From: [Chlorobium] sp. 445
GTDB taxonomy: Bacteria; Bacteroidota; Chlorobiia; Chlorobiales; Thermochlorobacteraceae
NCBI GenBank assembly: GCA_002763895.1
Contig: NSLH01000001.1
Span: forward strand, 124,001-188,000
Direction of reading: 5' to 3'
Length of the DNA stretch: 64,000 nt
How positions within the stretch are numbered: the first letter of the stretch is position 1; each line of letters begins with the position of its first letter. Both the position numbers and the translations under genes were made by a program. The notes beneath the pieces are model-generated. The model made no database searches. It saw only the letters and a program-made list of their open reading frames with translations, and was not told the DNA's origin. Positions 47,239 to 51,343 of this stretch are shown in pieces.

Positions 47239-47267
47239 TTTTCACTTTCAAAAATCTGCTGTATATT
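47239..47267 (+). promoter_or_regulatory. Candidate sigma-70-like promoter for metH
   Basis: TTTTCA (47239-47244), a 17-bp spacer and TATATT (47262-47267). Transcription would start about 47274, just ahead of the folded leader at 47297. Fit is fair, not strong. Confidence 0.5.
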
Positions 47268-47296
47268 GCACACGAACTTTAACGCACCATTAGGTA

Positions 47297-47363
47297 TGGA
47301 CACGGCGTTAAAGGCTTTCGGCGGCGAGCGCCCGAAAGTTGCTCCGAAATGGAGTCGTGTCCA
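47297..47363 (+). promoter_or_regulatory. Candidate riboswitch aptamer: three-way junction in the metH leader
   Basis: P1: TGGACACG (47297-47304) with CGTGTCCA (47356-47363), 8 bp. P2: GGCTTTCGG (47313-47321) with CCGAAAGTT (47332-47340), 9 bp including two G-U. P3: GCTCC (47341-47345) with GGAGT (47351-47355), loop GAAAT. P2 and P3 abut with no linker; the only joining segment is GCGTTAAA (47305-47312). The fold lies directly upstream of an intrinsic terminator and metH. I do not recognise the cores of SAM-I, SAM-II, SAH, cobalamin, THF or TPP riboswitches. The described SAM-Chlorobi motif is one possible relative, but I cannot check its consensus. Confidence 0.6.
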
Positions 47364-47382
47364 GCATCACCATCGCACGGCT

Positions 47383-47416
47383 GCCTTTCCAGTTCGGAGA
47401 GGCTTTTCTGTTTTTT
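47383..47416 (+). terminator. Intrinsic terminator in the metH leader, with overlapping antiterminator
   Basis: Stem GCCTTTCC (47383-47390) with GGAGAGGC (47396-47403), 8 bp with one G-U, loop AGTTC, then TTTTCTGTTTTTT. It stands 52 bp before the metH ATG, so termination here would stop expression. TTCGGAG (47393-47399) in this hairpin is fully complementary to CTCCGAA (47342-47348) in P3 of the upstream junction, so the two folds exclude each other. Confidence 0.7.
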
Positions 47417-47467
47417 GCCCTCGCTTGCCGAAACACCGATTTCGCAGTCCAATTTTAACCTAACGAT

Positions 47468-50400
47468 ATGTCACGGCCGACAATCTACGAGCTACTCAAA
47501 GAGCGCGTGCTTGTACTCGATGGCGCGATGGGGACGATGATTCAGCGCTACAAACTTACCGAAGAAGATTATCGAGGCGAGCGATTCAAAAACTTCAGTC
47601 CGGTCCAGCCACACAACCCTATCGCAGAAGCGATGGAGCGCAAGCTCGATGAAGTCCTTCATAGAGCACATGCGCAGTCGGGGACGGGCATTGAGCGCAA
47701 TGGGCACAGCTGCGCTAACCCTGCTCATGCGTATGGTGCTGCGCCCACCAAAGGCACACTCAAAGGTAATAACGAACTGCTGTCGCTCACACAACCGCAG
47801 ATCATTAAAGAAATTCACCTGCAATACCTCGAAGCCGGCGCGGATATTATTGAAACCAACACATTCAGCGCAAATCGCATCTCGCAAGCAGATTATGCTA
47901 TGGAGCATCTGGTCTATGAGATGAACTTCAAATCGGCAAAGCTGGCTAAAGAAGCGGTGCGAGAAATAATGCAGAAGACGCCCGACAAACCACGCTTCGT
48001 AGCAGGGGCTATCGGACCGACAACGAAACTGGCTTCAATGTCGCCTGATGTCAATGATCCCGGCTTTCGCGCTATTACCTACGACCAACTCTTTGAGGCA
48101 TACTACGAGCAAATCTGCGGTCTCATTGATGGCGGGGTAGATCTCTTGCTTATCGAAACCATTACCGATACACTCAATACCAAAGCAGCACTCTCAGCGA
48201 TTCGCAAGTACTTCGACACGGTTGGACGGCGAGTGCCGGTCATGATTTCAGGCACGATTGTCGACCAGAGCGGTAGAACGCTGTCAGGACAGACGACCGA
48301 AGCCTTCTGGATTTCAATTTCACATGCGCCAAATTTGCTGAGTGTTGGCTTGAACTGCGCCTTAGGTTCAGCACAGATGCGCCCGTTTATTGAAACGCTG
48401 GCGCGTCATGCGACGTGTTATACCAGTCTCTATCCGAACGCAGGTTTGCCCAACACCTTCGGCGAGTATGATGAGACGCCGGAGTATATGGCGGCGCAGT
48501 TTGAAGACTTTTTGCGTAATGAATTTGTCAACATTATCGGCGGTTGTTGCGGCACAACACCGGAGCATATCAAAGCCTTTGCTGAGGTTGCTGCGCGCTT
48601 TAAGCCACGCAAGCCCAAGGCACGCATGAGCAACATGCAACTTGCTGGACTTGAGCCCCTTGTGATAACACCCGAGACGGGCTTCATCAACATCGGTGAG
48701 CGCACAAATGTGACAGGCTCGCCGAAGTTTGCAAAACTTATCAAAGAGCAGAAATACGAAGAAGCGCTTGCAATTGCGCGTCAGCAAGTTGAAAACGGCG
48801 CACAGATTATCGATGTCAATATGGATGAGGGCATGCTCGACTCTGAAGCGGCAATGGTGAAGTTCCTGAACCTAATTGCAGCTGAACCAGACATTGCGCG
48901 CGTGCCAATTATGATTGATTCCTCCAAGTGGTCAGTCATTGAAGCTGGTCTCAAATGCGTACAAGGTAAAGCCATTGTAAACTCTATTTCACTCAAAGAA
49001 GGTGAAGAGAAGTTCAAAGAGCAGGCAAAGAAGATTATGGAATATGGCGCTGCTACGGTTGTCATGGCATTTGATGAACGCGGACAAGCCGATACCTTCG
49101 AGCGCAAAATAGAAATCTGCAAGCGCGCTTACGATATTCTCACCAAAGAAGTCGGCTTCCCACCACAGGATATCATCTTTGACCCGAATATTCTCACGGT
49201 GGCTACTGGCATTGAAGAACATAACAACTATGCCGTAGACTTCATCAGAGCAACCAAGTGGATTAAAGAAAACTTGCCATATGCCAAAGTCTCGGGCGGT
49301 ATCTCAAACATTTCATTCTCGTTCAGGGGCAATAATCCTGTGCGCGAAGCGATGCACTCGGCATTTTTGTATCATGCAATTCGAGCCGGGCTCGATATGG
49401 GCATTGTCAATGCCGGCATGATTGAGGTCTATGAAGAAATTGATAAAGAACTTTTGGAGCGCGTCGAAGATGTCCTGCTCAATCGACGCCCTGATGCAAC
49501 CGAGCGTTTGGTGGAATTTGCTGAAGAATTAAAGAAACGCTCTGAGGTGAAAACAACCGAAGTGCAAGAAGAAGAATGGCGCAAGGGCACGGTCGAAGAA
49601 CGCTTGAAGCATGCTCTGATTAAAGGCATTGATACTTACATCGTAGAAGATACCGAAGAAGCGCGCCTGAAATATCCAACCCCACTTGCCGTCATTGAAG
49701 GTCCGCTGATGGATGGCATGAACGTGGTCGGCGATCTTTTCGGAGCAGGCAAAATGTTCTTGCCGCAAGTCGTGAAGTCTGCGCGCGTGATGAAAAAATC
49801 CGTCGCCCATCTTGTGCCCTTCATTGAAGCTGAAAAAGCCAAGAACGCGAATGCTAAAGCAGCTGCAAAAGTGTTGATGGCAACAGTCAAAGGCGATGTG
49901 CACGACATTGGCAAAAACATTGTGGGCGTGGTGCTTGCATGCAACAACTTTGAAGTCATTGACCTTGGTGTAATGGTGCCTGCTGAAAAAATCTTGGAGA
50001 CTGCAAAGAAAGAACAAGTCGATATCATTGGGCTCTCGGGACTAATTACGCCCTCGCTTGACGAAATGGTTCATGTTGCCAAAGAAATGGAGAGACTGGG
50101 TTTCAAAATCCCGTTACTTATTGGTGGCGCAACAACTTCAAAGATTCACACCGCCGTGAAGATTGCACCGCACTATTCAGGTGCGGTGGTGCATGTGCTC
50201 GATGCCTCGCGCAGTGTACCTGTGGTGCAAAGTCTCGTCACACCTGAAGAAAAAGAAAGGTTTGTGTCTCAAGTCAAAGCCGAGTATGATGAGCTGCGCG
50301 AGGCGTATCTCAAAAAGCGTGTAACACGCAAATATGTGTCGCTGGCTGAAGCGCGTGAGAATCGAACGCCAATTATTTGGCGTGCTGAAGACATCTACAA

Positions 50401-51343
50401 ACCCAAAAAGCTGGGCATCACCACACTGGAGCAAGTCTCACTGTCTGAACTGTGCGAGTATATTGACTGGACACCCTTCTTTCAGACTTGGCAACTTGCG
50501 GGGCGCTACCCTAACATCTTGCACGATGAAGTGGTCGGTGAAGAAGCACAAAAGCTTTTCCGTGATGCTAATCAACTCTTGGAGCGCATTGTTGCAGAGA
50601 ACTTACTGACAGCAAAAGCCGTGTTTGGGCTTTTCCCCGCAAATGCTATCGGCGATGACATTGAAGTCTATGCCGATGAATCACGTGCAACGGTGCTTAC
50701 GGTGTTTCACACACTGCGTCAGCAAAATGAAAAAGGTGCAGAACGCGCCAACCGCGCCCTTGCTGACTACATTGCCCCAAAATCCACAGGGCTCATTGAC
50801 TACATCGGTGGCTTTGCTGTAACAGCAGGTCATGGGTTAGAGACGCTCGTCAAAGCCTTTGAGGATGCAAAAGATGACTATAACAGCATCATGGCGAAAG
50901 GCCTTGCTGATAGGCTCGCAGAAGCCTTCGCAGAAATGCTGCACAAGAAAATTCGTACAGACTACTGGGGCTATGCACCCAATGAACACACAACGAACGA
51001 CGATTTGATTGAAGAAAAATATCAAGGTATTCGTCCTGCGCCTGGTTACCCAGCTTGCCCTGACCACACAGAAAAACGCTTGCTCTTCGATCTCTTAGAG
51101 GTTGAAAAACGTGTAGGTATTTTCCTGACAGAAAACTTTGCAATGTATCCTGCCGCGTCGGTGTCAGGACTTTACTTTGCGCATCCAGAAGCGGTCTACT
51201 TCGGTGTTGGCAAAATTGGAAAAGACCAGGTAGAAGATTATGCAAAGCGCAAAGGCATGTCAATTGAAGAAGTGGAGCGCTGGCTTGCACAAAACTTGAA
51301 CTACGAGCCCAGTGTAGCAGACGCTGAAGTTACAGCAGCATAA
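47468..51343 (+). CDS. metH: Cobalamin-dependent methionine synthase
   Basis: 1291 residues, all four modules present. The homocysteine domain starts [14 protein letters not shown] and has zinc ligands in NCALG and [10 protein letters not shown]. The pterin domain has [14 protein letters not shown] and DVNMDEGM. The cobalamin domain has the DVHDIGKN ligand histidine near residue 812, [11 protein letters not shown] and [10 protein letters not shown]. The AdoMet activation domain ends with [15 protein letters not shown]. It transfers a methyl group from methyl-THF to homocysteine through B12. Slightly longer than the E. coli enzyme (1227). It needs an external or endogenous B12 supply. The leader probably regulates it (see 47297-47416). 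Confidence 0.97.

Follow-up and report, generated by a model that had tools for sequence, protein, structure and literature searches.

SAM-II and SAM-V riboswitches are small H-type pseudoknots found at methionine-metabolism genes. In the SAM-I (S-box) terminator riboswitches, a ligand-stabilised aptamer frees a terminator. The described RNA closest to the locus analysed here is SAM-Chlorobi (RF01724; PMC2864571), in which helix 1 closes a loop with CCAUUANNUAUGGACACG and a mini-hairpin, followed by an inserted P2 hairpin and a 3' CGUGUCC. It lies just downstream of a Chlorobi-type promoter box, with a methionine/SAM-cycle gene as target. Since 2010 it has been an unproven riboswitch candidate known before metK/ahcY only, where it is described for these genes or listed merely as a predicted SAM riboswitch (PMC2864571 and others). 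Weinberg and colleagues probed several SAM-Chlorobi constructs in-line, in work called preliminary, and detected no SAM or SAH binding (PMC2864571).

The window is a stretch of 64,000 nucleotides from [Chlorobium] sp. 445 (contig NSLH01000001.1, positions 124,001 to 188,000). In it, the leader of metH has each of these parts, and it also lies in a member of the Chlorobi, close to a strong promoter and before a gene of the methionine/SAM cycle. A preliminary description had called this leader riboswitch-like, with transcription attenuation and an OFF-switch layout, which we judge right. The 8-bp P1 strands, 9-bp P2, 5-bp P3 and terminator that it listed are all present at the places given. The features, as we now read them, are the following.

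47262-47267, forward strand: TATATT, located 16 nt upstream of helix 1; a -7 promoter box of the TAnnTT type of Bacteroidota/Chlorobi
47278-47285, forward strand: TTTAACGC, helix 1, 5' strand (partner 47305-47312); 7/7 counted pairs changed on both sides among 24 sequences
47287-47299, forward strand: CCAT-TAGGT-ATGG, loop-1 mini-hairpin; 100% paired in 24 sequences, with compensatory CCGA/TCGG and CCAA/TTGG
47297-47304, forward strand: TGGACACG, pseudoknot 5' strand (partner 47356-47363, 8 bp), the 5' half of the earlier P1
47305-47312, forward strand: GCGTTAAA, helix 1, 3' strand, the earlier "joining strand"; perfect complement of TTTAACGC, covarying
47313-47340, forward strand: P2 hairpin in the third pseudoknot loop, predicted at -13.2 kcal/mol; stem sequence variable in relatives
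47313-47321 and 47332-47340, forward strand: P2 strands GGCTTTCGG and CCGAAAGTT, 9 bp including two G-U
47341-47355, forward strand: GCTCC-GAAAT-GGAGT, P3 hairpin, conserved in G000-G003 only; source of the antiterminator strands CTCCGAA and TGGAG
47356-47363, forward strand: CGTGTCCA, pseudoknot 3' strand and proposed switch strand; alternative pairing of GTCGTG (47354-47359) with CACGGC (47376-47381)
47376-47381, forward strand: CACGGC, candidate antiterminator partner of the pseudoknot 3' strand; CACGGC/CACGAC in G000-G003, GACAC or GGACGC in the G004, G006, G007 and G008 metH leaders
47383-47416, forward strand: GCCTTTCC-AGTTC-GGAGAGGC, intrinsic terminator with an 8-bp stem (47383-47390/47396-47403), loop AGTTC and T tract (47404-47416)
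47393-47399, forward strand: TTCGGAG, exact complement of CTCCGAA (47342-47348)
47468-51343, forward strand: metH, cobalamin-dependent methionine synthase, 1291 aa (TIGR02082, 1774.5 bits; cut-off 1010.85)

The T tract ends 51 nt before the metH ATG (47468). All 20 metH and metK leaders inspected have a TAnnTT box upstream of helix 1, at a distance of 9-18 nt (mostly 13-17), so the metH transcript is expected to start within a few bases of helix 1, probably a few nucleotides before it.

In terms of family assignment, Rfam at the gathering threshold gave tRNA as the sole match in the whole window. At permissive thresholds there is a single match in the leader, at 47280-47364, to the full length (1-87) of SAM-Chlorobi, with 32.2 bits and E=2.2e-4. 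This is 2.8 bits below the RF01724 gathering cut-off of 35 bits, which is a score threshold and no biological feature. The metK copy of the same genome scores 43.6 bits. A relation to SAM-Chlorobi, to be checked by an Rfam search, had been suggested beforehand, and the full-length match bears this out. No match to SAM-II, SAM-V, SAM-I, SAH or cobalamin riboswitches was found in the leader segment (Rfam, E up to 10). The leader resembles SAM-II and SAM-V in architecture, and we do not claim membership; with the S-box it shares the working principle, on an unrelated fold.

A model built from 17 metK leaders and zero metH sequences (R2) finds the window metH leader with 51.4 bits (E=1.7e-11). It recovers every one of the nine metH leaders in f1, the family to which the window belongs, with E from 9e-12 to 2e-4, the weakest being that of G007 (25.2 bits, E=1.8e-4). 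No match was obtained at metH in the other families that were searched. Since the held-out, metK-only model recovers every f1 metH leader, we consider homology-based membership firm despite the missed Rfam cut-off, with the metH leader a diverged SAM-Chlorobi RNA. The class, given as not recognised in the preliminary description, is thus SAM-Chlorobi.

As for the fold, the strand GCGTTAAA, previously drawn as the unpaired joining strand of a three-way junction, pairs with TTTAACGC, and the former P1 (GGACACG/CGTGTCC) is a pseudoknot. The loop of helix 1 contains the pseudoknot 5' strand, which makes the structure an H-type pseudoknot with an inserted hairpin and no three-way junction. Helix 1 is followed by a 12-nt loop and by the pseudoknot 5' strand, which abuts the helix 1 3' strand; a third loop with the P2 and P3 hairpins then leads to the pseudoknot 3' strand. 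Helix 1 and the loop-1 mini-hairpin of the Rfam consensus are both present in the window leader, as is the conserved 3' CGUGUCC complementary to the loop GGACACG. The P2/P3 segment differs from known SAM-Chlorobi, P3 being a hairpin of G000-G003.

The covariation score of a 24-sequence alignment is 0.335; shuffles give 0.183 +/- 0.013, and sliding the partner strands gives no more than 0.094. P2, too variable in length to align, was left out of this formal count. In the same alignment the pseudoknot is 96% paired and two of its pairs vary on both strands; it is not scored by the Rfam covariance model. Furthermore, every one of the 50 leaders allows 6-7 bp between GGACAC(G) and the 3' strand, and the G007 metH leader carries a compensatory double change (GGACGC/GCGTCC). 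The mini-hairpin, CCAU/AUGG in the window, is paired in every one of the 24 sequences, as CCGA/UCGG in G005 metH and CCAA/UUGG in G012 metK. Two G belong to both the mini-hairpin and the pseudoknot, which makes the mini-hairpin mutually exclusive with the first two pseudoknot pairs; only one of the two elements can be complete at a time. The mini-hairpin may be a folding intermediate or a part of the switch. By this comparison, helix 1, the mini-hairpin and the pseudoknot with its inserted hairpin form a conserved fold.

These results weigh on two other explanations. An unrelated riboswitch class with a three-way junction would agree with the lack of any Rfam family reaching its gathering score at the leader. 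It is refuted as stated by the full-length SAM-Chlorobi alignment, the held-out detection and the covariation of helix 1 and pseudoknot, and we regard it as very improbable. The other alternative, that an ordinary terminator-bearing leader folds in this way by chance, draws on the folding energy of the whole leader, which is only modestly unusual against shuffles (z=-2.1). The structure is conserved and covaries in nine genomes, which refutes chance folding and leaves it a negligible probability. The conservation in related genomes asked for in the preliminary description was found in all nine f1 metH leaders. As for the covariation it proposed to look for, the P1 strands do covary, as a pseudoknot; P3 is conserved in G000-G003 only.

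Across genomes, the RF01724 model gives a strong site in most of 61 relatives searched; in every one of the nine f1 genomes it also gives a weak site immediately upstream of metH. Model R1 finds a site in 88 of 98 genomes of the window's class. The nine f1 genomes have exactly two strong copies each, one before metK(-ahcY) and one before metH, and nearly all other class genomes with a site have one copy, of the metK type. The exceptions are G063, with two metK-type sites, one of them at a contig end, and G084, with a weak second match within coding sequence. By this distribution the metH copy is confined to f1, which is probably the Thermochlorobacter group. The literature separates this group from Chlorobiaceae (PMC9318685), to which we infer that family f4 corresponds. 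In the genome of the window, the stronger site lies beyond the window (C1:214320-214399), with metK and then ahcY downstream (TIGR01034, TIGR00936).

A search of 395 genomes of the phylum gave only two weak matches outside the class (G273, G152). Neither has a good pseudoknot (in G273, GGACAAG versus CGTATCTA), both fall within or next to unrelated coding sequence, and they were rejected as chance. Ten weak second RF01724 matches in Chlorobiaceae-type genomes (L074-L083) were likewise set aside as chance, since they fall within or next to coding sequence that has no relation to methionine genes. Two f4 genomes, G037 and G052 (99% and 96% complete), have no SAM-Chlorobi match with either RF01724 or R1; these are apparent losses.

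The target itself has some particularities. No metE was found in the genome of the window, so metH appears to be its only methionine synthase; in the congener G001, metE is also present. The MetH encoded in the window has a segment of some 50 residues (47600-47755, MetH residues about 45-96), flanked by ERFKNFS and LKGNN, that aligns with f1 relatives throughout; matches to MetH of the order's other families skip it, covering about 3-44 and then 97 onward. G002 has a second metH in adjacent matches (C75, C64) that resembles those of other families. This genome is listed as 13% contaminated, so the second metH may be on foreign contigs.

Concerning the expression platform, a clean intrinsic terminator follows the aptamer in 8 of the 9 metH leaders; in G002 the stem is kept and the T tract is poor. 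In most metH leaders the pseudoknot 3' strand has an alternative partner just before this terminator. In G000-G003, GTCGTG from the 3' strand region pairs with the conserved CACGGC/CACGAC; GTGTC pairs with GACAC in the G004, G006 and G008 metH leaders, and GCGTCC with GGACGC in that of G007. Thus in G007 (GGACGC / GCGTCC / GGACGC) the pseudoknot partner and the antiterminator partner have both changed along with the 3' strand. Shuffling the linkers gives weaker pairing (z=-5.4 for the real leaders, 0/1000 shuffles), in a test of seven non-redundant metH leaders that represent only about three lineages.

The metK leaders show no such enrichment (z=0.1). There, the terminator 5' arm finds its partner in a purine-rich strand that directly precedes the pseudoknot (z=-3.5), for example AUAGAAAAG with CUUUUCUAU in G007. 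Among all leaders with a terminator, no convincing antiterminator was found in metH of G005 and metK of G012. A simple terminator hairpin, present in the metK leaders of most other f1-f3 genomes, is missing from three of them (L061, L062 and L063, from G000, G001 and G002); a different platform is suggested by long-range pairs, for instance GCCAAG/CTTGGC in G000. By eye, the printed stretches of the f4 metK leaders (L031-L060) have no obvious terminator after the aptamer, and GGAA..TTCC before CGTGTCC is strongly conserved in them. The f4 leaders may instead control translation or work in some other way.

The antiterminator proposed in the preliminary description was the perfect 7-base match of CTCCGAA with TTCGGAG. 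This match is confirmed in the sequence. The most consistent element of the metH leaders is, instead, the pseudoknot 3' strand with CACGGC. CTCCGAA/TTCGGAG is found in 4 of the 9 genomes, G000-G003 (7, 6, 7 and 6 bp), and is a lineage-specific extension of the antiterminator; in G002 an A-T pair has become G-C by a double change. In minimum-energy, pseudoknot-free snapshots of the growing RNA, the antiterminator is present at 47390, where the terminator 5' arm has just emerged, and at 47403, and the terminator at 47416. As the antiterminator folds first in these snapshots, pseudoknot formation up to that stage would decide between the two.

Taken together, the SAM-Chlorobi RNA at the 5' end of the metH transcript is probably an OFF switch of transcription, in which stabilisation of the pseudoknot by a ligand would let the terminator form. 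With the cognate metabolite (most likely SAM) plentiful, the pseudoknot would be stabilised and the strand CGTGTCC locked in it, so that the terminator forms and metH is off. With the metabolite scarce, CGTGTCC and the neighbouring P3 segment would pair with CACGGC and both terminator arms; this antiterminator would disrupt the terminator, and metH would be transcribed. Against the model count the negative SAM and SAH probing (PMC2864571), the lack of a convincing antiterminator in metH of G005, the apparent use of a neighbouring strand in the metK leaders, the poor T tract of G002 and the small number of lineages among the metH leaders.

The dependence of the metH leader on a ligand is inferred. 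A structured attenuator that responds to a protein, to translation or to RNA polymerase speed, with no small molecule, would be in line with the fact that no ligand has been shown for the SAM-Chlorobi family. We consider it unlikely given the near-invariant loop and pseudoknot sequence of the leaders, set in a compact pseudoknot, and the same RNA on both metK and metH; nor was a conserved leader peptide seen by inspection of the printed leaders.

As for the ligand of the proposed OFF switch, metK-ahcY and metH have SAM as their joint end product, which makes it the most sensible candidate; we give it about an even chance. The same RNA and terminator mechanism could instead respond to methionine, homocysteine, SAH, adenosine, methyl-folate or another metabolite of the methionine cycle, a reading we hold possible and somewhat less probable. 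It would fit the unseen SAM/SAH binding in published probing (PMC2864571), negative results that were themselves termed preliminary, and metK, ahcY and metH all belong to one cycle. Nevertheless, the joint end product best suits an OFF switch on metK and metH; methionine would shut off its own consumer enzyme, and SAH would shut off ahcY, its own remover. With a similar, slightly lower probability, SAM-Chlorobi may be a genuine riboswitch class for a ligand that is neither SAM nor SAH, which the metH version with its complete terminator platform would reveal.

The RNA family itself is known; what is new is metH as a target, a platform with a terminator and a prediction for the direction of control. 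We found no report of any of these for SAM-Chlorobi, in a search that had most subscription journals and supplementary files outside its reach. The metH branch was missed by the Rfam cut-off. A metH target in a sister family, a pseudoknot backed by compensatory changes and terminators linked to the 3' half of the aptamer lead to the predicted OFF direction, and the metH terminators make ready-made single-round transcription assays for ligand identification. Lastly, with the same RNA before metK-ahcY, methionine synthesis and its conversion to SAM would answer one signal.
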